From positions 19,039,501-19,103,500 of the forward strand of contig NC_089726.1 of NCBI RefSeq assembly GCF_035083965.1: a stretch of 64,000 nt of DNA. Direction: 5' to 3'. A program made the translations under genes and the position numbers. The DNA is from Branchiostoma lanceolatum. Its lineage: Eukaryota > Chordata > Leptocardii > Amphioxiformes > Branchiostomatidae. Each line of letters starts with the position of its first letter. Position 1 is the first letter of the stretch. The notes under the pieces are model-generated. The model was not told the DNA's origin, ran no database searches, and was given only the letters and a program-made list of their open reading frames with translations. This document shows, piece by piece, positions 11,757-64,000 of this stretch.

Positions 11757-12953
11757 GTGGCATTGTCAGCGATGAAGGGTGATTTCGAAGGAGATGCCAG
11801 TGACGACAAGAAAGCACTTCTCACGGCGGCGAAGGATGATCTCAAAGAAGATGCCAGCGACGACAAGAAAGCAATTCTCAGGGCGATGAAGGATGATCTC
11901 AAAGATGATGCTAGTGACGACAAGAAAGCATCTCTCACGGCGGCGAAGGATGATCTTGAAGAAGATGCCAGTAAAAACGACAAGAGAGCATCTCTTACGG
12001 CCGCAAGAGGGCCATTGCTTGCCTTGGGAGCAACGGTTCTCTCCAGCATATCAGCGGAATTCATGGCCCTAAGTAGTGAGGGTGGAATCCCGCGGTTCCA
12101 ACTTCTGTTCCTTCTTAATTTGACCCAACTACTTGTAGTTCTAGTTTGCCTTGTAATCTTTCGTCCAAAACTAAAGGGCGAGAACAGACGACAGAACGGT
12201 TTATTGCTCTTGGAGGCGTTCATTAACAACATCGCGACCTCCCTGGTGTTTTTATCCTTCACCTTTGCTGCACCCGGCATCGCGTTCGGCATCATTCAAG
12301 GATCAATGCCGCTGTTTACGGCCTGTTTTGGGTTCGCGTTTCTAAAGGAAACAATCAGTGTCATACCGTGTTGTGGGATTTTAATCAGCGTTACGGGGAT
12401 GGTACTAGTTACGATTGGGATGGTGGACCAGGCTGTTAAAGCTACACTGGTAATGGTAGAGTCGATTCTCCTGCCACTGGCAGCTGGCTTCATGGGAGCA
12501 CCAGATATGGTTTTGATACGTGCCATCCAAAGGGATGTGTCCGGCTTCACTATGTTGTTCTACATACAAGTACTGGGAACCTTAGCCGCACTCACACTGA
12601 CTTTAACACTTGAGACCCCCGTATGGGTAATGTCGGCAGAGATAGCTGGGTTCGTAGCTGGGCTAGGCTTGTCCGAAGCTGTGGCCCTGTTGTTCATGAC
12701 AGCGGTACTTAAATTTGAGAAGGCAGCCATCGCTGTTGCACTGCGCACACTCGTGACACCGTTCTCAATCCTACTGGATTTCTTCATCTTGTCAAAGGTA
12801 CCAAATTTACTGAAATGGGTAGGTTTGTGTCTAGTAGTACTCGGTACAATAGTGCTTGCTGCCCATACTTACTGGACACATCGTCAGGACGAAAATCGTC
12901 GATACTTTCTGGAAAAGATGGGATTCTCTTCTTCAGAAAATGAAACCAAATAG
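11757..12953 (+). CDS. EamA/DMT-family transporter, SLC35G-like, copy 2 (ATG start probably at 11772)
   Basis: Full-length transporter with the same ten-helix, two-EamA-half layout as copy 1. The conserved start codon of copies 1 and 3 is GTG here (11757), with an in-frame TAG just upstream at 11745. The first usable ATG is 11772, giving about 393 aa and losing only MALSA. The N-terminus is expanded into four tandem 19-20-residue units of the DASDDKK type (one in copy 1), encoded by a 57-bp minisatellite. The membrane region is intact and closely similar to copies 1 and 3; the tail ends FSSSENETK. It lies in the left arm of the inverted repeat; copy 3 is its mirror partner. The transport substrate is unknown. 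Confidence 0.8.
   Translation: MALSAMKGDFEGDASDDKKALLTAAKDDLKEDASDDKKAILRAMKDDLKDDASDDKKASLTAAKDDLEEDASKNDKRASLTAARGPLLALGATVLSSISAEFMALSSEGGIPRFQLLFLLNLTQLLVVLVCLVIFRPKLKGENRRQNGLLLLEAFINNIATSLVFLSFTFAAPGIAFGIIQGSMPLFTACFGFAFLKETISVIPCCGILISVTGMVLVTIGMVDQAVKATLVMVESILLPLAAGFMGAPDMVLIRAIQRDVSGFTMLFYIQVLGTLAALTLTLTLETPVWVMSAEIAGFVAGLGLSEAVALLFMTAVLKFEKAAIAVALRTLVTPFSILLDFFILSKVPNLLKWVGLCLVVLGTIVLAAHTYWTHRQDENRRYFLEKMGFSSSENETK
11772..12002 (+). repeat. in-frame 57-bp minisatellite in transporter copy 2
   Basis: Four head-to-tail units of 19, 19, 19 and 20 codons, each reading roughly (M/A)KDDLxxDASDDKKAxLTA; the last unit has an extra residue and reads DASKNDKR. Unit length is a multiple of three, so copy-number change keeps the transporter frame. 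Confidence 0.9.
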
Positions 12954-18129: not shown

Positions 18130-19698
18130 ATGCAACAACTAAAGGTAGAGAACCCAGCCACCTGGTATAAGGAACTCAAAACCATGTGCAACATCGTTAA
18201 GCCACCCTGCGTTATCCACGTACCTGACGTCGATCCAACCGACCACAAAGCTGTTGCAGACGCGATCAACAAACACCTAGCAAGTATCTCACAACAATCC
18301 CCTCCAGTGTGTACCAGCCAGCTGCCAGCTTACCTGCCTGCACCGTCACCGCCACCACAGATCCAGCCCTGGGACATGTACGCGGAGCTGAGACGTGTCA
18401 AAGTCGGCAAAGCTGGAGGCCCGGATGGTATTGCACCCCGACTGGTTAGGATGTTTGCTTGCGAACTTGCCGAGCCCCTTACGGATATCCTCAACACGTC
18501 GCTGAAGGAAGGGGTAGTCCCCACTCAGTGGAAAGAAGCCGTGGTTGCCTCCATCCCCAAAGAACTCCCAGCAGTTATTGACAAGCTACGCCCTATATCT
18601 CTTACAGCGATATTCGCGAAGATTTGTGAGGGATTTGTCGCCAAGTGGGTGCTGTCGGACATTTGGAAGAATATCGACCAACGTCAATTCGGGGGTATAA
18701 AGAGAAGCTCAACTACACACTGTTTGGTCAACCTATTACACTTCTTGTTTGAAGGTGCAGAGAGAAGCAAGAACGTGGGAACCATTGTATTAACAGATTT
18801 CACTAAAGCGTTCGATATGGTTAACCACAAACAAGCCGTCAACAAACTCTTGAATATGGGAACGCGACCTTGCATTATACCCTGGATTGTTAATTTCCCC
18901 TCAGAAAGACGACAGCGTGTTAGATATGGAGATTCATTGTCAGACTGGCAAACTCTCACCACCGGAGTACCACAGGGTACAAAATTGGGTCCGATTATCT
19001 TTCTATGCATGGTTAACGACGCCTGTCTAGCACATGATGACCGGTGGAAGTATGTCGACGACCTGTCCCTTGGAGAGAACAGACATGTCCGGCAACAGTC
19101 GCACCTTCAAGAACAAGTGAACTCGTTAGACAAATGGTCCAAAGACACAGAGCTTAAACTCAATCCGAAGAAGTGTTTCACTTTCACTGTCTGTTTCCTG
19201 AAGACCCCACCCCCACCTCTGCAGATAGTCATTGATGGAAAACAGCTCAAAGCTGTAAACATTGTCAAAGTTTTGGGACTGTGGCTACAGTCAAATCTCA
19301 AGTGGGAAACACAAGTGTGCGAGATGACAAAAAAGGCAAGCAAGCGCATGTTCATGATTCGGAGGTGAAAAACGTTTGGCCTCCCACTGACTGACTTGGT
19401 TACAATATACTGTGGGTTCATCCGTCCAGTACTAGAGTGCTGTGTCCCTGTCTGGCATCACAGCTTAACAAGTCATCAAACGGCCGCCATTGAACGTGTA
19501 CAGAAACGGGCATGCCGCATTATTCTTGGGAGGGCCTACACAGACTATAACACAGCACTTAATATATGCGGTCTAGAGAAACTTGCCAGTAGAAGAGCCA
19601 ACCTGTGTGTGAAATTTGCAAACAACATCCGAGAGAACTGTAGAGTTAGTGCCCACTTCCAGGGGACAAACACACGGACGGTCACTCAGGAACTCTAG
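18130..19698 (+). pseudogene. retrotransposon reverse transcriptase, one internal stop
   Basis: One frame covers RT fingers and palm: KAGGPDGI, RPISLT, LTDFTKAFDMVNH, GVPQGTKLGP and the catalytic box YVDDL, then a thumb region. TGA at 19366 interrupts it after MIRR; the same frame continues through FGLPLTDL, YCGFIRPVLEC and VQKRACRIILG to a stop at 19698. Apart from that stop it is intact, so the insertion is fairly young. Confidence 0.85.
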
Positions 19699-22493: not shown

Positions 22494-23690
22494 CTATTTG
22501 GTTTCACTTTCTGAAGAAGAGAATCCCATCTTTTCCAGAAAGTATCGACGATTTTCGTCCTGGCGATGTGTCCAGTAAGTATGGGCAGCAAGCACTATTG
22601 TGCCGAGTACTACTAGACACAACCCTACCCATTTCAGTAAATTTGGTACCTTTGACAAGATGAAATAATCCAGTAGGATTGTGAACGGTGTCACGAGTGT
22701 GCGCAGTGCAACAGCGATGGCTGCCTTCTCAAATTTAAGTACCGCTGTCATGAACAACAGGGCCACAGCTTCGGACAAGCCTAGCCCAGCTACAAACCCA
22801 GCTATCTCTGCCGACATTACCCATACGGGGGTCTCAAGTGTTAAAGTCAGTGTGAGTGCGGCTAAGGTTCCCAGTACTTGTATGTAGAACAACATAGTGA
22901 AGCCGGACACATCCCTTTGGATGGCACGTATCAAAACCATATCTGGTGCTCCCATGAAGCCAGCTGCCAGTGGCAGGAGAATCGACTCTTCCATCAACTG
23001 TGTGGCTTTAACAGCCTGGTCCACCATCCCAATCGTAACTAGTACCACCCCCGTAACGCTGATTAAAATCCCACAACACGGTATAAGACCGATTGTTTCC
23101 TTTAGGAATATGAACCCAAAACAGGCCGTAAACAGCGGCATTGATCCCTGGATGATGCCGAACGCGATGCCGGGTGCAGCAAAGGTGAAGGATAAAAACA
23201 CCAGGGAGGTCGCGATGTTGTTAATGAACGCCTCCAAGAGCAACAAACCGTTCTGTCGTCTTCCCTCGCCCATTAGTTTTGGACGAAAGATTACAAGGCA
23301 AACTAGAACTACAAGTAGTTGGGTCAAATTAAGAAGGAACAGAAGTTGGAACCGCGGGATTCCACCCTCACTACTTACGGACATGAATTCCGCTGATAAG
23401 CAGGAGAGAACCGTTGCTCCCAAGGCAAGCAATGGTCCTCTTGCCGCCCTGAGAGATGTTCTCTTGTCGTTTTTATTGGCATCTTCTTCAAGATCATCCT
23501 TCGCCGCCGTGAGAGATGCTTTCTTGTCGTCACTAGCATCTTCTTTGAGATCATCCTTCGCCGCCGTGAGAAGTGCTTTCTTGTCGTCACTGGCATCATC
23601 TTCGAGATCATCCTTCATTGCCGTGAGAATTGCTTTCTTGTCGTCACTGGCATCTCCTTCGAGATCACCCTTCATCGCTGACAATGCCAT
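22494..23690 (-). CDS. EamA/DMT-family transporter, SLC35G-like, copy 3
   Basis: Intact 398-aa single-exon copy in the right arm, starting at the conserved ATG (MALSAMKGD). It has four N-terminal 19-20-residue DASDDKK-type units like copy 2, followed by the ten-helix EamA/EamA core and tail THRQDENRRYFLEKMGFSSSESETK. It differs from copy 2 at a few percent of residues, mostly conservative, plus reshuffled unit order in the N-terminal repeats. This is more divergence than in the central part of the arms. Role: multi-pass membrane transporter of unknown substrate. Confidence 0.85.
   Translation of the reverse strand: MALSAMKGDLEGDASDDKKAILTAMKDDLEDDASDDKKALLTAAKDDLKEDASDDKKASLTAAKDDLEEDANKNDKRTSLRAARGPLLALGATVLSCLSAEFMSVSSEGGIPRFQLLFLLNLTQLLVVLVCLVIFRPKLMGEGRRQNGLLLLEAFINNIATSLVFLSFTFAAPGIAFGIIQGSMPLFTACFGFIFLKETIGLIPCCGILISVTGVVLVTIGMVDQAVKATQLMEESILLPLAAGFMGAPDMVLIRAIQRDVSGFTMLFYIQVLGTLAALTLTLTLETPVWVMSAEIAGFVAGLGLSEAVALLFMTAVLKFEKAAIAVALRTLVTPFTILLDYFILSKVPNLLKWVGLCLVVLGTIVLAAHTYWTHRQDENRRYFLEKMGFSSSESETK
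23445..23675 (-). repeat. in-frame 57-bp minisatellite in transporter copy 3
   Basis: Four units of 19, 19, 19 and 20 codons. Compared with copy 2, the variants in units 2 and 3 are swapped in order (MKDD... before AKDD...), which points to unit turnover or conversion and not simple descent. Confidence 0.9.
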
Positions 23691-47732: not shown

Positions 47733-50700
47733 ATGGAAATGCAGTGTCGAGTATCCGGGGACATGGAGCTGCCTGCAAAACGGGGAAGATACCAGAACGA
47801 CAGCACCCAACAAGTCTACGAATGCGACTCAAAACCAATCGGAAGAGTGCAGCCTGGCTTGTTGGCCGCCAAGCCAAAACATGGAGCCTTTGTCACCGTC
47901 AGGTACCTACAAGGAGCCGACCATCACCGACAAGAAATCATGGAGCTCATCAGGAGACTTCAACAGTACGGGAACGCAGCAGGAGAGCGAACCTGGTCGG
48001 TAGTAACCTTCAATCCGGAGCTGTGGAAAAACTGGCAAAACGGTCAGATACGGTTGGAGAAGCGTCCGGAAGGGAACTACCTACTCCCCAACTCCACCAA
48101 GTTTGTCAACACCGGCGGCGACATCTTCTTCTTCCTCAAGTCCGACTCCATGGATCACATTGGACGGCTGAAAGACATGGTCAGCCAACAGCTCAACGCC
48201 TTCCAGGACGTCAGTTTCGACGTACAAGACTCGGAGACGGGCAACAACCGCGTCATAGGCGGTCTTTTCGCCGACGGTTTGGCCAACCCAACGGACGTCG
48301 AGAACATCGACGACTTCGTCATCACGACGGAAGTGGACAAGGGCGCTACGGGTGGATCCTACATGCTGACGCAGAAGTTCGTCTTCAACTGGACCATCCT
48401 AGACAACATGACGCGTGACCAGCTTGAGAACATGATCGGGAGGACTGTGACCGACGACGTCCTAGTGGTCAATGACCCACGGAGGCACACCAAGTGTGCA
48501 CATATTCTGGACGAGAACGGGAAACATCCGCTCATCTTCCGACAGTCCATGCCCTACGGTCTCAACAAAACCGGCATCGGCCGCGAGGAGGGTACCTTCT
48601 ACATCTCCTGCGCAAACACATGTCAACGTTTCCTTGACATACTCAAGAAGCTGGTTGCGGAAGAAGACCATCTCATCAGCACCGTACACGCGGAAGAAGG
48701 GAGCCTCTGGTACGTGCCAAGCGCCGACGAGCTCGGCCTGGCGCCTGTCCCCGTCCGTGAGCAACTCACCTTGATGCCACAGTGGGACGTCAAGAGTGAC
48801 AACGGCTACATGTTCTACAACAGCCGAGAGTACATGTACCGGATGACTACAGGCGGTTACCATGACAACACGCCCAGCTCGCGCGTCCTGAAACTCATGG
48901 GTCGGGTCCTGACCGACTGGCAGCGCAGCTGGTTCGAAAAGACGGACGAGCCCCTCATCCCTGATCTCCAAAACTTCCTCAACAACGAAGACCGCACCCT
49001 CCTGGCCAAGTATGACAACGCCGTGCCCATCAGGAAAGGTCTGGCTACATACTACACATTACAGCATGTCGTCAAAACACCTCCCTTCTCCGAAAAGTTC
49101 GACCTGTACCGTATCTACCCCGATGAGCTGATCGTGGGAGTCATGCCAAGCTTCGCGTTTGGTCTTGGAAAGAGGGTGATGCCGTACCTGACGCCTGAGG
49201 AGCAAATCCCTGCCTTTCAAATGGGTGTCAACGAAGGTGCAGCTATAGGACACGTCGTGCCGGATTATCAGGTCATCCTGGACAAGGGTCTCCAAGCCAT
49301 TATTGATGAGATGGAGAACAACGCACGGTCCGCGCAAACAAAAGACAAGCAGATGTTCTTCCTCTCGGCTGCAAAGTCGTTGATGGGGGTGAAGGCTTAC
49401 ATAGAAAGCTACGCAGTGCTGGCCGATAACTTGTCCACCAAAGAAACGTTTACCGAAGAGCAGAAGGCAAATCTTCGACAGGTCCGCGACCGCATGCGGA
49501 AGCTTGCGAAGAACAAGCCGAAGACGTTCCTGGAGGCTGCACAGCTTGTATTCGCGATGCATTGCTGTCTACACATCGTCGGTGAGCTGATCTCTATCGG
49601 TCGGCTGGACCTGCTGCTGGGACCGTTCTACGCTCAGGGCCAGACAACTATGGAGGAAGCCCAGGAAATCATCGACTGTTTCTTCATGAAGATCGGCGAG
49701 AGAACCCTTCTTAACCGCCACGCAGCACAGGATAAGATATTCCCGGGAATGTGTGCCGTCCCCTATACAAGCGGCGGCAACTTCCCACAGGGCGGCTGCA
49801 TGAACCAGTGGGGACAACAGCTCACCATCGGCGGCTACCTGCCGAACGACGAACAGGTCCCAACGTCCGCCTGTAACGCAGTCACCCTGATGTGTCTCCG
49901 GGCCTCCAGGCGACTTCCCTTGAACGCCCCGTGCCTGACGTTACGACTTCACCGAGGCATCTCTCAAGAGGTGTTGGAGGAGACAGCCAAGACCCTGCTC
50001 AGTGGAGGAGCTCACCCGGTCCTGCTGCATGATGACAGGCTGGTTCCAGCTCTACAGGAGTCCGGGCGTAGAGGGATTCACGTCCGCCTGAGAGACGCCA
50101 GGAACTACGCCTGTGACGGTTGTTTCGAGCCCGTGTTCGTCGGCGCCTCCGAGTTCGCGTTCTGTACTTTCCCCCTGCTTGACGCCGTTGAAATGGCACT
50201 GAACGAGGGCACGCTCTACTCCCAGGCCGGTCCAACTTTCCTCCGGGGGTCCAAGAAATCCTTTCCCTCGCCACATGCCAATCAGATCAAAACGTTCAAG
50301 CAATTCCAAGACATCTTCCTGCAACATCTTCGCCTCCACATCCCCTTGCTCGTATCGTTCCTCGCCGGTGGCTATGGTAACATAGTGAAGGTGTGCCCCA
50401 GCCCTCTCCTGTCTGTCATGATGAGGGGGTGCATAGAGGCCGGCCGGGATCATTCAGGTGGCGGTACGGAGTACCACGATCTGGGCTTCATGTTTGTGGG
50501 CGGATCCAATGCCATCGACTCGCTCTACGCGATCAAGAAGTTAGTCTACGATCCACTCACCGCGCTGACGACCCTCCCGGATCTTCTGACCTGTCTGAAA
50601 TGTGACTGGGGCTACAACATGAAAGAGTTCCTCATCGACGTACGAGCCGGAACGGGCAGAGGGGAAGCGCAGGCAAGCTTCTTCAAACATCTTCGAGACG

Positions 50701-52045
50701 CAGCCATGTCTCTCCCAAAGTTCGGTCACGGCGAAGACGCAGAATTGAAGGAGCTGGCGTCCTGGATGTTCGAAAACGTCTTCAAGATCCTGAGGGAGAC
50801 CTTCGAGAATGCTCCCATCGGTGTGAAGGAGATCTTTGAACGGCTGGAGAAGGAGTTTTCTCTCCCCGACAGGCCGTTCGGCTTCGTGGCGCTGACAGGG
50901 ATAGGCACGTTTGAGGCGTACGTCGGGTACGGACTGAACAACGGGGCGTCGGCGGACGGACGGCGGAGCGGCCAGCCGATAGCGTCGGACCTGAGCCCGG
51001 CACCAGTACCGCAGGACCTGCCTGCTAGTCCCGACAGCTGCAACATTTACAAGTAAGTGGACAACATACAATTAGGCACTTGACTTTTTTCAAGTTACTC
51101 ACATCTTCTCTTTCTCAACTAATCAAACGGAATCCAATGCCTTTCGAATGCAATTTTGTGCTTTTACATTGATACTGTAAATGCAGAAATGTTCGCGGTG
51201 GTTTTATGTTCGCGGTTTTTGCGGCGACCGTTTCACCGCGAACTCAAAGCCACCGTGAACATTTTGGTCCAATACTGTAGAAGTATGTGACTATAGCGCT
51301 GCCGCGAAGTTAAAACCACCGCGAAATGCATTTACAGTATTTCCACCGCTGTAACGTCGTATTTTCCCTGCAAATTGTCTGTTTTGTTCAGGGCCCTGGA
51401 ATGTTGGAACCTTGACGTCATCAACATCGGCATGTCGTGCGGCTCTGAGGTGGATCTGATGATACGTGAAGACTTCCCATTGGACAAGCTGGCCGACTTC
51501 CTGCGTCACTACTCGGACCTGGACGTCCCCATTGGCTCCAACGTCATCGCAAGTAAGCCTTTTCCTGATTCGCTATTCTACAATAGCTAGAACTACAGCA
51601 CTAACATCATGGCCATTACATAATAACCAATGGAAAAAAGTCTCACTTTGAGTCACCAGACCGCAAGACAAACAGCTACATCCTGTCTCTTTTTCTGGCT
51701 GAAAAATTTCATCATCTTATCTTTGTTTTGAAAAGGGGTAGAATCGGTGGCTAGCGATCGTTTGTTCTCTCCATTCTCTATAAGTAGTCTCACGCTGATA
51801 TTTAACGCCAAAATGCAATCTAAGTCTAGTCTAGTCTGTTCTATTTAGTGATGAACTATTCTCATCTCAGTCTGTTTTTCTCCTCAGTCACGTGTGCTAA
51901 TCCGGAGACGCTTGAGAAGGCATCAAAGAAGACCGACCCATACGAGCTAGTGCGCGTGCGCCAGGGCGGTTGGACTGAGTTCTTCATCACCCTGTTCCCT
52001 GTGCACCAGGGCCAACAGCGACGCCGTATGTACGTCAAACCGTGA
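47733..52045 (+). CDS. DyP-type peroxidase fused to a glycyl radical enzyme (1212 aa, 3 exons)
   Basis: Exons 47733-51052, 51392-51552 and 51888-52045; phases and GT/AG borders agree. Residues about 45-335 are a YfeX-like dye-decolorizing peroxidase: GGLFADGLANP with distal Asp181, GGSYMLTQKF, MIGRT, proximal heme His257 (CAHI), distal Arg270 (FRQSMPYG). Residues about 385-1212 are a glycyl radical enzyme of the pyruvate formate-lyase superfamily: the GHVVPDY region, active-site thiyl Cys797 with Glu799 (DGCFEP), GGGTEYHDLG, SADGRRSGQP, and the radical loop RQGGW with Gly1188. The GCxEP motif is that of lyase/dehydratase members (choline lyase, glycerol dehydratase types), not pyruvate formate-lyase, which has two adjacent Cys. 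Substrate is unknown. No signal peptide, so it is probably cytosolic. The last residues (MYVKP) fall in a minisatellite. Its activating radical-SAM enzyme is not in this window. ATG at 47733 or 47739 may start. Confidence 0.9.
51173..51339. mobile_element. MITE of the GTTCGCGGTGG family in intron 1 of the fusion gene
   Basis: TACTGTAAATGCAGAAATGTTCGCGGTGG at one end pairs with CCACCGCGAAATGCATTTACAGTA at the other, with inner GTGACTATAGCGCTGC shared with the copy at 60303 (TATAGTCACATACTG, reversed). It places this intron in the same genome as the rest of the window. Confidence 0.8.
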
Positions 52046-52247
52046 CGTATGTACGTCAAACCGTGACGTATGTACATCAAACCGTGACGTGTGTATGTCA
52101 AACCGTGACGTACGTCAGACACGACGTATATACGTCAAACCGTAACATACGTCAGACATAATGTATGAACATCAAACCGTGACGTCATGTACGTCAAACC
52201 GCGACGTATGTACGTCAAACCGCGACGTATGAACGCCAAACTGTAAG
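52017..52247. repeat. minisatellite overlapping the stop codon of the fusion gene
   Basis: About ten imperfect units of GACGTATGTACGTCAAACCGT (20-21 bp, some shortened) run from the last codons of the coding exon into the 3' UTR. The TGA stop at 52043-52045 is part of the junction between the first two units. Confidence 0.9.
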
Positions 52248-52798
52248 ATAATCATTTTAGAAAAATTCAGTTAAAAGGTGAAGCCATATAACCATAACCA
52301 TAGCAATAGCTTATAGAAATTTAAGTATAGAGAGAGGTACGTGCACATGCACGTGGGAAAACCAACGGTAAACAATAGAAAACGTTCAGGGACGGGTCAC
52401 TATGCTAACGAGCATAGAGTGGGAAGAAAGTGGTTAGGCCCCTGTCGTCACAAATTAAGAACGTTCTCACGACTTTGCCCCCGACCACTCCTAAACCATA
52501 ATTGGCATGGCGCTGGATTGGGAGTAGCCTGGGGTCCATCCTATTCTAGCTCCACTTCGTTCCTATGATCGCATCTAAGATCAATATGAAATTCACAAGT
52601 TTGACACGTCAAACACACGACAGGTTGGCGCAGACAACTTTTAGAGACGAGTAGGCAATTTAGGTGACTGAGACTGTAAAATTAAAAGTGTCGGTGACTT
52701 TATGATTTATGGTTAAGTTGAGAACTTTTGTTACGGGAGGCCATTATTAATGTGATTTTAATTTTGAACGCATTATTGTGGAGACATGGGTGTGGTGT

Positions 52799-56700: not shown

Positions 56701-59700
56701 ATCGAATGAAACCTTGAAATAAGACATTGATTACTAAACGGCACTATTGTAAACATCATATTGCATATGTCTAGGCTACTTTGCGTGCGACAGGAAAAGT
56801 ACTAACAGTTCCTTTTCTGCATAGCGTTATGAATGGATTGGGCTATGTGGATAGATATGGAATCTGGACAAGATAAAGGTACATTGAAAGTATCGGTACT
56901 TGATAAGATGTCATCAAAGGACGAGGCTGAAAATGAAAGGGACAACGCTAATGCTTCAAATGTCGGTAGAAACGGAAGACTCATTGTTGTACATTACCAA
57001 ATAAAAAGACGTAAAAATGAATCTGCAATTATACCATGTATAGCTAGTCTCATAGATCGATTGGCAAATAAGCCCATTCACGGTTCCGACTTCGCATGTG
57101 CAGTGTCAAATGTGAAGGCAGTTGGCTTGTAAACAGTGTTCGTCTCGACATTGTCTAGATTTGCACAACGGCCCGACGGGTTTTGTTTACGTCTCGGGGC
57201 CTTTACCTTTGACACTACACATGCGTAGTCGGAACCGTGATTGGGCTTATAGTCCTAGGTCGCATACCCAGGTCGGCTAACTCCCCTGGCATGTTAGATT
57301 TTTTTTTTGCCAATTTCGTATGCTACTATTTTTCCAGCGGCATATGAAGTCTGGTAGAGCCTAACTATATCATACAATTCTCTTGTGACGAAACAGGTGG
57401 AGGTAGCATATACAACACATTTGAAGGTTGTCAGAGGGGGGGGGGGGATTCAAACATTTTCTCGGTGGGGCCAAAGCAAAGGCCATGGGATCTTCTTATC
57501 TAATGGAGTTATACTATTCTACTCTGCCAATATACTATAATTCTTGTTTCTTTCATTGTAACTTTAATTATGTTTACTGGTTTCACAGTCACTTCTGAAC
57601 CGTGAACTTATCATCAACGTGAAAAAACCCTGTTGTTATTATTTATGATTCCTTCACACAATAGTTCTGTAAATCACTTGCCACCACCGTGAAGTTCAAG
57701 TTCAGTGAAAATTTCAATTTTCCTTACACCGTGAAATTTTGCTACCGTGAAGATAAAGTGAATTACAGTATATTGACATTTGTTGCTCTTTTTTAAAGTT
57801 GCAAGTCATGGCATTTATATATCGTACGACAAGTGTGTGGAACTTGAACGATAGTTACTCAGCAAATCGATCAACTTTTGTCACATCCATCTTACCTGGG
57901 TTTTGTATCCGGGTCACCCTCAACTTCCGGTGTGCGTTTCCTCCAAACGTCATACATGGTTTTCCCTTCCGGTGCACTGACAGGCCAGGGAACCTGCATA
58001 ACATTGGGTACGTGACTTGCGGGTTCGTTCAGTACAAAGGACAGTACTCTATACGAGTTTGCGTACACATACACAGATCCATGAACAGATACGGGGGGCG
58101 ACACAAGTTAACTGGCACGTATGACCCGCTACTACGGTCACGTGTCTCTGACGTCACGTTACAGGAGTAGACGGATCAACCAAAAATTTGGGTAAGTCCC
58201 AAATCATTATTGTGTTGGATGTGAAGTTTAATTCCTTAGTTCATAACATATCCATTATCATGCCTGATCTGGAAAGTGTTGTTTTACGACTTACGACGTT
58301 TTGGGGTTATCATTTGCTGCGTATGTTCCAAAATTACAGGCGAATGACATGCCTACCAGCAAAGTTCGCAACCATTAGATAAACCCACCTTCTTCGCGGC
58401 TTCCAGTAATGCCGGTGCAAGTTGGGGTGACGCTCTCCCACGGAGGGAGTAGGTGGCTGTTCAGGGGAAATCGTATTACAATACTTCAGCGGTATGAAAT
58501 GCTTACGGGAAACATTTAGTACGCGTATTTCGGACGCCAAATTTTTGAAAGAGACAAAATAAAAAAAAGCTTGCATCGGCCGGGAATCGAACCCGGGCCT
58601 CCCGCGTGGCAGGCGAGAATTCTACCACTGAACCACCGATGCTGACGATGATGGTAGGGTAATGTTAACTGTAAGATATATTATTTACATTTGAGCCCCA
58701 AACTTTTTAAACAGATATCATAAGTTATATGGCCATCAGGAAATCTTACAAAATGTTTTACAATAGATGAAATAACAATGGATGATATAGAAAGATGGAT
58801 AGGAAGTTGATGTTTTACTAACCTCTTACAGCCATGTCCACGTTCAAGTACGCCACAGCTCGCTCTGTTAGAATCTTACCGAAATCCTGTATAAGAAAAA
58901 GATGATTATATGACCATGAACCACGTTGTAGCTAATCTAATCTAAATGCAACATAAAATACTTCATTGTTTCAAAGAAAAACAGAAAGAATGTCGATGTA
59001 CTCTAGTGGTGAAGAAGAAATAGGAAGAAACGTATACAAGTATATGCGCTTTCGTAGATTCAAGTACGCATGTGCAGTGTCAAAGGTGAAGACCCCTGGC
59101 TTGTAAACAGTTCTGTCTCGACCATTGTCTAGATTTGCAGGACATCGCCCAGACGGGTTTTGTTTACGTCTCTTGGGCCTTCACCTTTGACACCGCGCAT
59201 GCGTACTCGATGTGCGAAAGCGTATATTGACGTGACCTACTTCGACCCATTCGAACGACCCGTGAACTCCATATTCTTCAGCATCCCAGCTGCAAAACAC
59301 GAGTGATCGTCTGGGGCGCCACCCTGCGGATTTGAAAGGCAAGTCACAAACAGAAGCGGCTAAAGGAATGATGAGTTCAAAAACTCTTGCATCGGCCGGG
59401 AATCGAACCCGGGCCTCCCGCGTGGCAGGCGAGAATTCTACCACTGAACCACCGATGCCGATATAATATGTTCATCATGCTCACGTCAGATACTGACTTA
59501 TACCATAACCTTAGATATAGTATTGTTAAGAATACGTAACTATACAGCTGATGAGCATTGACATCGCCGCCATGTTGTTAGAACTGATGATAGATACAAA
59601 ATGGCGTCATTAAAACACACGGGCGATCATTCTACGAAAAAAGGACGGAATATACTCATTTTTATGATATCTTTTTTAGAAGCAAATAGCAGGCATGAAA

Positions 59701-62700
59701 GAGAAGTGGGAAATCAAATACGTTAATGAAGGTTGGGAAATCAATATTTCATGACAGCCTCACATAATGACTTGATTACGAAAGTCCAGAACGACAAAGC
59801 AAACAGCCTATGCTGAGGTCTGTAAGCACACAGCCTATGCGGAGGTCTGTGAGCACCTCTTTTGAGGCCCCTGAGTACCTCTGTTGAGGCCTGTGAGCAC
59901 CTCTTTTGAGGCCTGTGAGCTTTGTTGTTCTGGGCTTTCGTACTAGTCACATTTCTTTAACCAACCAACATGGCGAACACGTAATCACGTAACTCATAAC
60001 CACGTGACAGCTAACCAATCAAAAGGTTACCTCTTTTCACCATTGCTCCGAACGCGTGGCTAACCTCCAGAAAGGAGCTGGTACCACTGCTAGGGTCAAC
60101 TCCGCCAAGGTTCCATGCGTCACGATGGTTGCCTAGCAACACATAACGGTCTGGAACAGAGAGTAACGAATGGGTACAAACTATAAAGATCGTTTTCATC
60201 GATGTCACTTGGTTAAGTCTAAATGAAACACAGCTGTTCAATGAAAAAACAAATAAAGTTCTCAAATTTACATAATGCTGATAACTGGATGCATCAAATG
60301 TTACTGTAAAATCAGTTAAGTTCGCGTGGTTTTCATTTCGCGTTAAGAAGAAAATGGAGTTTTCGCGATGGTTTTAAGTTTGCGGCAGCGCTATAGTCAC
60401 ATACTGCTACAGTATTGGATAAAAATGTTTGCGGTGGTTATAAGTTTGGGGTGAAACGGTCGCCGCGAAAACCACGAACATAAAACCACCGCGAACATTT
60501 CTGCATTTACAGTATATTGTCCAGGTAACGGTCTAAACCTGTATGACACGAAATCATGGTGTTCGGGGCCATAACACTTCCCCAAAGGGCCGCTAGGAGC
60601 GCAATTTAGTCAGACTAGTTGTATAGCTATCACTGTTCGGCTAAATACACATCAAAAACATAGAGTCTATGTTTTTAATGTGTATTAAGATCATAGAGAT
60701 ACAGATATCTAACTGACATGCAGGCACTTCCTCATTGGTCGATTCTCTAATTACCGTGTAATAATTGGTTGAATTGCTAATTGTGATGGACAGTTAGGAC
60801 CAGACTATTCTTTGCCACACTGGCCTCGTTTTCATTCTATCATGTCCGCCGCGTGAGAAAGGTGTATGTTGACTCTTTCCGTACATGTACCTCCATGAGG
60901 TGTGGCTCTATCTCACCTGGCTCCACGCGACCCCGGATGACCCCGATGACGTTGTGAATGGGCCTCACCTGACGGTTGACGTTAACATTCAGCCGGACTT
61001 TCCTAAACAAGATTTTTGTAATGAAAACAATATGAACTAGAGTTAAGTATTTGTGCTACATATACTTCAGGTTTGCTATATTGTTTTAGCGACTACGGGG
61101 CCTTTTTATAAACATGAATTGGTATTGAATTTTTTTATTATTTGAGTTGAATGTGTGATAGTTGTGTGCCGATTTGTTTAGAAAAAGAGAGCACGCTAGC
61201 GACCCCAAAAAATAACCCTCCCAATGAAATGGTATGGCGACCTTGTGACGTCACAATTCAAGATGGCGGCCACCTTATATGCCAACGGATCCAACAAAGG
61301 TTTTGCTACGCAAACTTGTAAAAACCCCAGGGGTTACTGTTTCTGTGCTTGTGTGATCGCACCTATAGCTTCAGGTCCTTTGATGGACTTGTGTGAATTA
61401 TGGTATATGGGTTGCTATTCAAGTCCCAAAGAAACATGGCAATATTTTGCCCCCTAGCTGTATATTCAAGTACTATAGCATTGCAGGCCGATACCGCCAT
61501 CTTGAAAGCATGGACAGCTGGTCAATCGTCCCCGACGTATGACCCCCTTATGGAAGGGAGATAGCTAGGGTTATGGCATAAAGAAATTCGCAAAAACTCT
61601 AAATTTATAGATCTTCGATTTCTTGTTGCCACTGTTTGTGAATGTATTGTTGACGGATATCACTTGAAAGCGTTACTGAGTCACATCATCAATGCACCAG
61701 GATGTAGCAACACAAGCATCTATATATATTAGAGAACTTTCCAGTGCAGTACATCTATATATATTTATGCGTATGTTATATCTATATATATTTATGCACA
61801 TGTTATCAGACCAAGCACGGGCACACACACCGCGCTCGTCCCGATGCCTGCAGTCCCGGTCCAAGCCGGTAGGTGATGTTGAGACCACCTCTCCAGGAGG
61901 ACGGAGCGTCCGGTCCTCCCATTGCACTTTGTGGAATAAAAGGAGGAATATATGATGAAGAAAAATTCTCTACTAAGGTAAAATGAAAACATAATTGCAT
62001 CGGCCGGGAATCGAACCGGGGCCTCCCGCGTGGCAGGCGAGAATTCTACCACTGAACCACCGATGCTACGGATAAATCATTAAGCTGTATTAAATTTTCA
62101 CGAGAAACATGTAGTACAATCATTTGAGACGCAAAAGTTTTGAACGAGACAAAAACGTTTGCATCGGCCGGGAATCGAACCCGGGCCTCCCGCGTGGCAG
62201 GCGAGAATTCTACCACTGAACCACCGATGCGATTCACATGTAATGTCTGAAACAGAAAAACTCGATTATCCATCACAATCATTGCTGATTAAATACCTGA
62301 GGAGGTGCCACGCGTCGTTATACCCTATGGGGTACGCCGGGATGGTGGGTAGGGGTTCACTCTCACTTTCATTCAACCGGAACATGTAATCTACGTCGAG
62401 AGAGGTAGACAATTTTTCATCGTTTTATCAAACTTCCTGTTGTTATAACTTCTCTTATCAAGCATTCTGTACTGTTATCTAAGCACATCGACTGGTGATG
62501 ATGACTGTCATCTAAATAAAGACCAATGCATTGTTGCTGTTGTATACGATGTATTGTTATATAATGAATTGCTTTTCGAAAGTTGATTATTCTAAATTTT
62601 GACAACAAACTAATACATTGTAGATAAAAAATTAACGCAAAGAAGAACTATCATGTCATCGTCATCATATCAACCCATTGAGCTGGATTTTCTATTGAGA

Positions 62701-64000
62701 CATAATCAATCACGTATCTTATAGCACAATACTAAACTTTCTTCCAACACGAAGGTATACACGGATAAAATTTTAACGACCACTGTCGCCTTCTTCAGGA
62801 TCAATAATGATCAATCACTTCCGAGCGTAAACTCGTGGGAGTTACAGACACGTGACTTTATTGACACGTGACTTTACGGTTACGTGACGTCAGTAAATGG
62901 TCAAACGAGCCACGAAGTTTATAACGTCGACCGTCCCTGTTTATGCTAGGGTCACATTTCAAATCCGGGGCCCGACCGGGCAGTATTTGGGAACGAAAAG
63001 TATGATATAGAAGACAACAAAAACACAAAACGTACCCAAAATTGACATAAACTTTGATTTTTTGTTTCCGCAAACAGCCCGGCGGGGTCCCAGTTAGGAA
63101 ATGTGACCCTAGCATAAGTGATGGCTGGAGTGGCCTGAACACGTGCACGTACCTTTTGCAGGGTAACCTGGTGTTAGCGGTTCCCCCTGCCCTCCCCCTG
63201 TGTAGAGGTAATGTCCCCTCTGCACTGCCGTACCCGGGCCGAACCACCCCTCGGGGTACACCGGCCGGCCGCTAGCTTCGGGGCCGGTCCCTACCGTGTC
63301 CGCGGGGTCCGAGTACACGATCAGGCCGATGGCACCCCGTACCTGGCAACGTCTCAACTACGAGGGACAAACACCAAATGAAAGTTACTCAAGCAACTGG
63401 ACTTTTGGAAACGGTTAGACATTTCAAATATCTGTATTTGTATTTATATAGCCGGTATAACCGCCCTTCGGCGTAACATTCCAGCTAATTTGACACTGAA
63501 GAAGATTTGTCGGTCAGCAGTTTTTAGTCATTATCCCCACGAACTATGAATTGATATGTAAATAAAGTAAAGACAATTGTAGATAGTCCAAAAGGATGAA
63601 AAATACATACAAATTTAAGCCAGGGTTAATGTAACTGAGACAACTAAGATAATAGCTTCCGTTGTTGTAGTACAGAAGCTAAAGCTAGTTCGCGGGCATG
63701 CCTGGGTCCTAGGTGCCAGACAGTTCGACTCGCAGCCCTCATACCCTGGGAGAACGTGTAAGTACAAATAACCCTTCAGGACTACCGCATATGTAGCATG
63801 TGAGACACAAAAGTTTGAAAAAAAACTTGCATCGGCCGGGAATCGAACACGGGCCTCCCGCGTGGCAGGCGAGAATTCTACCACTGAACCACCGATGCCG
63901 ACGATGTGGACATTCTGTGCTTATTTCGTAACAAGCATTTAGCACGCTTATTTTATACGCAAAAGTGTTGATGAAAAACAAAATTGATGCATCGGCCGGG
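53477..64000 (-). CDS. FOLH1/NAALAD2-like: glutamate carboxypeptidase II-like M28 metallopeptidase (5' end beyond window)
   Basis: Zinc exopeptidase of the transferrin-receptor/GCPII group. Exons seen: 63153-63342, 62297-62390, 61831-61926, 60917-61002, 60031-60150, 59241-59323, 58823-58886, 58389-58456, 57896-57993, 56139-56229, 55346-55598, 54730-54811, 54142-54234, 53477-53669; all phases agree, giving 536 aa. Order: end of the PA domain ([19 protein letters not shown]), M28 catalytic core, TfR-like dimerisation domain. Zinc and catalytic residues are present: His in GNHRDAW, Asp in GGVDPSSG, Glu-Glu in WDAEEYG, Asp in LNVDMA, His in PLYHT. Human GCPII binds C-terminal glutamate through two arginines in its GRAR loop; here that loop reads PSVDL, so substrate preference probably differs. 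The N-terminal anchor and the rest of the PA domain lie beyond 64000. Transferrin-receptor-like non-enzymes are excluded by the intact zinc site. Confidence 0.93.
53699..53893. repeat. AAT-rich microsatellite
   Basis: (ATA)n with AAC and GAT interruptions in the last intron of the peptidase gene, starting about 30 bp from the final exon's acceptor. Confidence 0.95.
56395..56655. mobile_element. hairpin MITE in peptidase intron
   Basis: Near-complete palindrome: TCAGTGACTTAAAAAAAGGTTACGAGA at the left and its complement at the right, with a CTAGTCTCGCGAGA core in both arms. One arm contains an extra GAGGTATATAAAACCTC hairpin. A half copy is at 36749. Confidence 0.8.
57066..57250. mobile_element. 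hairpin MITE in peptidase intron, copy 1
   Basis: AGCCCA(T)TCACGGTTCCGACT...CATGTGCAGTGTCAAA pairs with TTTGACACTACACATGCG...GGAACCGTGATTGGGCT. The centre (GTCTAGATTTGCA) is shared with the copy at 59045. Confidence 0.8.
57260..57375. mobile_element. remnant of the CTCTACCAGAC element family
   Basis: GCCAATTTCGTATGCTACTATTTTTCC and GTCTGGTAGAGCCTAA resemble the element at 5640-5830 (TCTACTATTTTCCCGGC; CTCTACCAGAC). It is a diverged, partial copy. Confidence 0.4.
58572..58642 (-). tRNA. tRNA-Gly(GCC), copy 1
   Basis: Complete 71-nt cloverleaf starting GCATCGGTGGTTCAGTGG, with anticodon GCC in the loop CTGCCAC, T arm GGTTCGATTCC and discriminator A. Acceptor and T stems pair fully. A run of T follows the 3' end on the minus strand, a Pol III terminator. 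It lies in a peptidase intron on the same strand as the host gene. Confidence 0.97.
59045..59228. mobile_element. hairpin MITE in peptidase intron, copy 2
   Basis: TACGCATGTGCAGTGTCAAAGGTGAAG pairs with CTTCACCTTTGACACCGCGCATGCGTA; outer GCGCTTTCGTA / GCGAAAGCGTA words add a second stem. Same family as 57066-57250. Confidence 0.8.
59388..59458 (-). tRNA. tRNA-Gly(GCC), copy 2
   Basis: Sequence identical to copy 1 across the mature tRNA, including anticodon GCC and fully paired stems. AAGAGTTTTTG follows, giving a T5 terminator. Located 65 bp from a peptidase exon, on the host strand. Confidence 0.97.
59773..59942. mobile_element. inverted-repeat element containing short tandem repeats
   Basis: TACGAAAGTCCAGAAC and GTTCTGGGCTTTCGTA form near-perfect ends. 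Inside, about four units of GAGGCC(T)TGTGAGCACCTC type, roughly 36-37 bp each, run head to tail. Confidence 0.75.
60303..60514. mobile_element. MITE of the GTTCGCGGTGG family in peptidase intron
   Basis: TTACTGTAAAATCAGTTAAGTTCGCG at one end and CGCGAACATTTCTGCATTTACAGTA at the other, with the same CGCTATAGTCACATACT centre as the copy in the fusion gene's intron. Confidence 0.8.
61996..62066 (-). tRNA. tRNA-Gly(GCC), copy 3, T-stem variant
   Basis: As copies 1 and 2 except for one base in the T stem: the 5' strand reads CCCGG, not CCGGG, leaving a C-C mismatch at the middle pair. Anticodon, D arm and B-box loop are intact and a T4 run follows. It may be functional or an early pseudogene. Confidence 0.9.
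62160..62230 (-). tRNA. tRNA-Gly(GCC), copy 4
   Basis: Identical to copies 1 and 2 in the mature region. Its end lies only 94 bp from copy 3, in the same intron. A T5 run follows (CGTTTTTG). Confidence 0.97.
63828..63898 (-). tRNA. tRNA-Gly(GCC), copy 5, T-stem variant
   Basis: One substitution in the T stem (5' strand CCGTG for CCGGG) gives a U-C mismatch at the fourth pair. The rest is identical and a long T run follows. It lies upstream of the first peptidase exon seen, on the same strand. Confidence 0.9.
63988..64000 (-). tRNA. tRNA-Gly(GCC), copy 6, cut by window end
   Basis: The last 13 bases match the 3' end of the other tRNA-Gly copies (CCCGGCCGATGC plus discriminator A). The 5' part lies beyond the window. 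The tRNA array therefore continues. Confidence 0.85.

Follow-up and report, generated by a model that had tools for sequence, protein, structure and literature searches.

The analysed window, a stretch of 64,000 nucleotides from the lancelet Branchiostoma lanceolatum (contig NC_089726.1, positions 19,039,501 to 19,103,500), carries on its forward strand a gene in which a B-type dye-decolorizing peroxidase (DyP) is fused to a glycyl radical enzyme (GRE). The gene occupies 47733-52045 of the window, the interval given in an earlier note made from the sequence alone, and consists of three exons, the ATG at 47733 opening an uninterrupted frame of 1107 codons. Exon 1 (47733..51052) encodes the DyP half, the linker and most of the GRE half, i.e., residues 1-1106 plus the first two bases of codon 1107. 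It is followed by intron 1 (51053..51391, with a GTAAGT donor at 51053), exon 2 (51392..51552), which encodes a C-terminal part of the GRE, intron 2 (51553..51887) and exon 3 (51888..52045), which by alignment to canonical GREs carries the glycyl-radical loop LVRVRQGGWTEFF and ends with the stop codon. Splicing of the two GT-AG introns in this model joins the exons in phase into a product of 1212 aa, identical over its full length (100%) to the NCBI B. lanceolatum protein P0001, encoded on a contig of 25.7 Mb. PF20628 and PF02901 are both matched in this one chain, as the earlier note's claim of a fusion implies, and chance is excluded as the source of the observation. B. lanceolatum has at least three fusion paralogues (P0001, P0006 and P0007), two of which sit on another contig, of 22.4 Mb; the catalytic motifs are kept. 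A 21-bp tandem array of ATGTACGTCAAACCGTGACGT-like units at 52022-52260 begins in the last codons of the gene and spans the stop codon and the 3' region, its first unit encoding the terminal residues MYVKP.

The peroxidase domain, residues 36-340 (47838..48752, forward strand), is matched by PF20628 (Dyp_perox_C, 69-72 bits), by the Dyp-type superfamily model TIGR01413 (110.3 bits, above its cut-off of 100.5) and by the structures PDB 2hag and DypB 3qnr, and it resembles DypB. Conservation was assessed in an alignment of 112 fusion homologues, i.e., the 120 listed matches of the search described below minus P0004 and seven truncated or odd-length rows. The distal heme residues Asp181 (codon 48273..48275) and Arg270 (codon 48540..48542) are retained in 107/112 and 109/112 homologues, respectively. 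The proximal heme ligand had been placed at His257, a position that is His in 35/112 rows, whereas position 252 (codon 48486..48488) is His in 112/112 and pairs with the conserved His of DypB 3qnr, which we take to be the heme ligand. With His252 in that role, the DyP-type residue set is complete in the alignment; the other catalytic residues named earlier, i.e., Asp181 and Arg270 here and Cys797, Glu799 and Gly1188 in the GRE half, stand as proposed. The lancelet DyP differs from the B-type enzymes DypB 3qnr and DtpB 8pws by its fusion to a GRE, and in two aligned shrimp fusion sequences the distal Asp of these enzymes is replaced by Glu.

The GRE half extends over residues ~360-1212 (48810..52045, forward strand, both introns included), stand-alone relatives starting to align at about residue 336-379, and is matched by PF02901 (PFL-like) with 309-310 bits. 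GREs hold a radical on a Gly residue and hand it to a Cys. The codons of the thiyl Cys797 and of Glu799, both invariant in 112/112 homologues, lie at 50121..50129 within the motif DGCFEP, which contains the lyase/dehydratase-type GC-x-E signature recognised earlier; DGC-x-E is found in 205/205 family proteins (P0001-P0205). The active-site motif is DGC-F/Y-E and not the Cys-Cys pair of pyruvate formate-lyase (PFL) proper, which places the protein outside PFL proper. Because the C-terminal loop aligns without gaps to canonical GREs (YKNLIVRVAGYSANF in P0206 versus YELVRVRQGGWTEFF in amphioxus), Gly1188 is assigned to the radical-glycine position. The triplet Gly1187-Gly1188-Trp1189 (51965..51973) is invariant in 112/112, so that an extra Gly precedes Gly1188 and a Trp follows it, versus the Tyr of canonical RVAGY. 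This GGW-type loop is present in 201/205 of the family proteins P0001-P0205, and the remaining four end early or differently. The earlier note had expected matches to the DyP family, PF02901 and the Gly_radical family PF01228; the first two were obtained, while PF01228 gave no match on the GRE half of the amphioxus protein with E relaxed to <=1. PF01228 does match eight DyP-linked GREs, recognised as such from host and frame length, at 22-31 bits, narrowly above its cut-off. An AlphaFold2 model of a fusion homologue is confident (pLDDT 94.3, pTM 0.93).

None of the NCBIfam GRE equivalogs was above cut-off in the proteins scanned. For the lancelet protein, two models with cut-offs of 1000 gave 151 and 113 bits, computed from exon 1 only (1107/1212 aa); the 151-bit match is to (2S)-3-sulfopropanediol dehydratase, and the NCBI name 'sulfopropanediol dehydratase-like' was dropped on this score. 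A PF01992 match at residues 938-1046 fell under its cut-off and was taken as chance. The glycerol/1,2-propanediol dehydratase GREs (1r8w, 9rcp) and the choline TMA-lyase CutC (5fau) share ~22-25% identity with the lancelet GRE half, from which they differ in having an RVxGY loop, where the lancelet family has RxGGW, an attached DyP and no adjoining activase.

The same DyP-GRE fusion occurs in bacteria, fungi and animals. A search with the whole protein gave 454 matches, of which the best 120 were listed, and all of these carry both Pfam domains; 113 matches were obtained with the Acropora copy as query and 26 with a profile made from 7 animal copies, and the latter added no named animal genus. 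The named animals with the fusion are Branchiostoma (several species, with paralogues), Patiria, Macrobrachium, Halocaridina, Acropora and Hydra. Trees were built from rows chosen by hand from 208 proteins (51 for the GRE half, 42 for the DyP half and for whole fusions), without P0004, P0005, P0008, P0124 and several further rows; all were quick searches with support from the Shimodaira-Hasegawa-like approximate likelihood ratio test (SH-aLRT) only. The concatenated tree (42 fusions) has a branch with SH-aLRT 100 that separates 10 named animal rows, together with three other assembly rows, from the rest. The GRE-half tree, in which long canonical outgroup branches meet, also groups the animals (support 99), and the tree of the DyP half places Patiria immediately beside the animal clade and not in it (support 91). 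Fungal fusions cluster with Andreprevotia and Chromobacterium, apart from the animal clade, and a tree holding animals and fungi together is rejected by the approximately unbiased (AU) test (p 1.2e-36, 275.6 log-likelihood units). One clade thus takes in chordates, an echinoderm, crustaceans and cnidarians, and the fusion is no lancelet oddity.

We read these trees as pointing to a single early entry into animals, probably before cnidarians and bilaterians diverged, followed by many losses, and to an independent entry into fungi; the animal copies may alternatively have come from an unsampled source by repeated transfer. Bacterial contamination or a false model merging two genes, to which the exon GC content of ~55% against ~40% in the surroundings might point, has a negligible probability and is ruled out by the two GT-AG introns, by the presence of the fusion in several Branchiostoma assemblies, where the contigs concerned measure 1.2-30 Mb, by the single clade formed by the 10 named animal rows and by a DyP/GRE junction that lies within one exon and recurs in bacteria. 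We regard the lancelet gene as a true animal member, of long standing, of a DyP-linked GRE family, in line with the earlier description of it as an animal gene.

The architecture itself has been published, contrary to the earlier statement that no such fusion had been described, and it is common in bacteria. Ccochdyprx of the fungus Chaetomium cochliodes consists of an N-terminal DyP-B and a C-terminal PFL-like domain (Zamocky et al., 2016; PMC5041501), a family description that the lancelet chain fits; the domain order is the same, and fungal and animal rows fall into separate clades by the AU test. That paper notes bacterial relatives and, by citation, the fusion in other prokaryotes and eukaryotes, and terms the significance of the DyP/PFL fusion elusive (PMC5041501). 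Its main text has no mention of branchiostoma, animal, metazoa or hydra, although Deuterostomia and Mollusca appear in the taxon key to its DyP tree, indicating that animal DyPs of some kind are in the tree (PMC5041501). The accessible part of a second paper has no mention of formate, glycyl or branchiostoma (PMC4420034). Our literature search, which covered papers outside subscription, found no other paper on the fusion and none on the animal genes or on peroxidase-driven activation. The architecture is therefore known, and what is new, as far as we searched, is the animal gene family, including its separation as a clade from the fungal copies, the constant pairing with a DyP and the candidate activase-free GRE.

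A motif-guided scan of a species-genome collection, which used two short motifs and leaves relatives with neither of them outside, gave 72 loci. On reading, 51 of these are fusions, of which one is truncated where the contig stops and three have an interrupted frame; another 15 are stand-alone sister GREs, and 6 are fragments. At the stand-alone sister GREs, the next gene downstream is a DyP in 14/14 loci with sequence there (L048-L053, L055, L056, L059-L062, L067 and L068). A profile built from the cluster of these neighbouring DyPs scored 379-726 bits at each of the 14 sister loci and matched zero fusion loci; 13/14 belong to the cluster, 10 of these trained the profile, and that of L062 lies outside it. 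Pfam confirms the downstream DyP directly in L049, L053 and L059. A genome-wide PF20628 search found exactly one DyP in 8/8 sister-host genomes (the hosts of L048, L050, L051, L052, L053, L056, L059 and L062); in three of these (G026, G031 and G033) the sole DyP is on the GRE contig, ~0.7 kb from the end of the GRE, and in the remaining five the single genomic DyP was taken as the one seen beside the GRE. The separate DyPs have PF04261 and PF20628 and are EfeB-like, a likeness tested on L059. Like the fusion, they are paired with the same GRE clade; unlike it, they are separate genes of a different DyP subtype. Since the separate DyP is EfeB-like and the fused DyP DypB-like, DyPs of two subtypes are partners of a single GRE clade, and in every complete locus examined a DyP is present, either fused or adjacent. 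One Acidobacteria metagenome bin holds both arrangements, a fusion (L024) and a sister GRE with a separate DyP (L049).

GREs are ordinarily activated by a radical S-adenosylmethionine (radical-SAM) enzyme, and such an activase was sought in 64 bacterial host genomes with TIGR02493 and TIGR02494 (PFL-type) and TIGR02491 (NrdG) at curated cut-offs, each genome with two loci being entered once, without its second locus (L047, L049 and L067), and the hosts of the fragments L068-L072 being left out. In 57/64 genomes no activase was above the cut-off of any of the three models. PFL-type models were above cut-off in 6/64 (G005, G006, G011, G022, G025 and G044) and NrdG in 2/64 (G025 and G052), giving seven genomes together. 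In each of the seven, a canonical GRE that itself matches PF01228 (49-133 bits) lies no more than ~3.2 kb from the activase; every one of the seven genomes with a canonical GRE thus has an adjoining activase, which provides an internal control for the survey. Outside controls behaved likewise: E. coli, Bacteroides and Lactococcus match PF01228 and TIGR02494, and seven outside controls, these three among them, match TIGR02493. Cultured isolates account for 33/64 hosts, and four of them have an activase (the hosts of L007, L008, L040 and L045).

The surroundings of the GRE genes were also screened. A first filter of 1009 picked open reading frames (ORFs) in the 72 loci left 4 radical-SAM-like ORFs; that of L045 is PflA-like and lies ~7.7 kb downstream, beside a canonical pflB, L019 and L024 have one each, far from the GRE, and the fourth belongs to L061. 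Because the ORF picker missed genes (e.g., the DyP of L062), the motif search was redone on six-frame stretches of at least 150 aa. This search covered 70 loci to a distance of 5 kb from the GRE and gave 18 matches and no radical-SAM gene adjoining the GRE; three matches were evident radical-SAM frames by eye (L005, L019 and L061), and the others looked like chance. The frame at L061 (6671-8035) encodes a protein with a radical-SAM motif (CNLGCSYC) two genes upstream of the stand-alone GRE, at this locus only.

The gene neighbourhood gives a hint of the substrate. In 49 of 57 genes downstream of fusion loci that were scanned, DUF2608 was found in 6, a PF04185 phosphoesterase in 4 and PLD-like proteins in 4, with 25 of 42 families listed; sister loci carry PLD-like and cytidine deaminase genes too. 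Such neighbours are suggestive of phosphoester-derived substrates, but they form no consistent pathway and were not used for the verdict. A ~617-aa protein is repeatedly found near fused and stand-alone forms alike (L017, L022, L031, L043, L048, L050, L053, L055, L056, L059 and L061); the single member that was scanned is PLD-like.

We propose that the peroxidase stands in for the radical-SAM activase, using hydrogen peroxide to install or renew the radical, an arrangement that would make for an oxygen-compatible GRE; to this proposal, drawn from sequence comparison, we give an even chance. Heme, if loaded in the DyP half, would react with peroxide to form Compound I, which may then take one electron, via aromatic residues, from the C-terminal loop (Gly1188, beside the invariant Trp1189) or, by an alternative route, produce the thiyl on Cys797 directly. 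The GRE half would then perform its usual Cys/Glu radical chemistry, of the lyase or dehydratase type, on a small polar substrate. An AdoMet-dependent activating enzyme would no longer be needed, and the chemistry would become possible in aerobic cells. Class I and class III ribonucleotide reductases offer a comparison, standing to each other as DyP-linked to canonical GREs. The hosts of the DyP-linked family are largely bacteria that are known to be aerobic. The peroxidase appears the simplest radical source because it is there in every complete locus, because the usual source is mostly undetected and because the Chaetomium fusion gene is reported to respond to H2O2 with 3-fold and to peroxyacetic acid with 18.5-fold induction (PMC5041501).

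Several points weigh against this proposal. About 31/64 of the host genomes are metagenome or single-cell assemblies and possibly incomplete, so that absence is weaker there, and the survey bears on bacterial hosts, the animal genomes lying outside its scope. NrdG-like proteins scoring 80-107 bits, under the 126-bit cut-off, are found in 8/64 genomes (G015, G017, G018, G022, G042, G047, G050 and G064); other radical-SAM or ferredoxin-type matches are frequent in the hosts, and a divergent activator may escape cut-offs of hidden Markov models. The fusion loci L005 and L022 come from bins named after Scalindua and Desulfobacca, which we take to be anaerobes, and the family is therefore not confined to aerobes. 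The survival of a glycyl radical in O2 is left unexplained by the proposal. Finally, a putative PFL activase is reported from C. cochliodes, itself a carrier of the fusion (PMC5041501).

The putative Chaetomium activase and the radical-SAM proteins under the cut-offs in many hosts would also fit a DyP half that removes H2O2 and so protects a glycyl radical installed by a radical-SAM activase, conventional or divergent, whose gene lies elsewhere. All GREs known to us depend on an activase, which speaks for this arrangement too. It is nevertheless unlikely, though to be taken seriously: the 57/64 hosts are without an activase above the three cut-offs, those found adjoin canonical GREs, a radical-SAM gene adjoins the GRE in 0/70 loci screened by motif, and a scavenger has no need of fusion or of being the sole DyP. 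The two halves might instead catalyse consecutive steps of one pathway, fused for channelling, with activation by another route. The pairing of two DyP subtypes with one GRE clade would fit a shared pathway as well, but the missing activase is left unaccounted for, and we regard this explanation as improbable. Similarly improbable is a family that uses no glycyl radical, in which the peroxidase acts on Cys797 as a direct oxidant, or in which the GRE half is a remnant with a structural or binding role. A stored glycyl radical would be oxygen-labile, the amphioxus loop is missed by PF01228 and the loop reads RxGGW instead of RVxGY, all of which would suit such a reading; against it stand Cys797, Glu799, Gly1187 and Gly1188, unchanged in every aligned homologue, and the eight DyP-linked GREs that do pass, if narrowly, the PF01228 cut-off.

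Elsewhere in the window, three long single-frame EamA-like transporter frames (1940-2974 and 11757-12953 on the forward strand, 22494-23690 on the reverse strand) apparently form a local family. A reverse transcriptase (RVT_1) frame of 412 aa at 18130-19368 on the forward strand is likely a retroelement, and five tRNA-Gly (GCC) genes lie on the minus strand at 58572-63898, within 5.4 kb.

That animals carry an oxygen-compatible, peroxide-activated GRE, with a heme peroxidase in the activase's place and a bacterial pairing that involves two DyP subtypes, is a tentative conclusion, to which we give somewhat less than an even chance. To our knowledge, GREs are taken to require both anoxia and a radical-SAM activase. 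Both rules would be broken by a widespread DyP-coupled family of bacteria, fungi and animals in which an activase can mostly not be recognised. If the conclusion is true, there would be a second way of starting GRE chemistry, GRE chemistry that works in air would be on offer, and GRE catalysis would have taken place in aerobic animal cells since before the cnidarian/bilaterian split.

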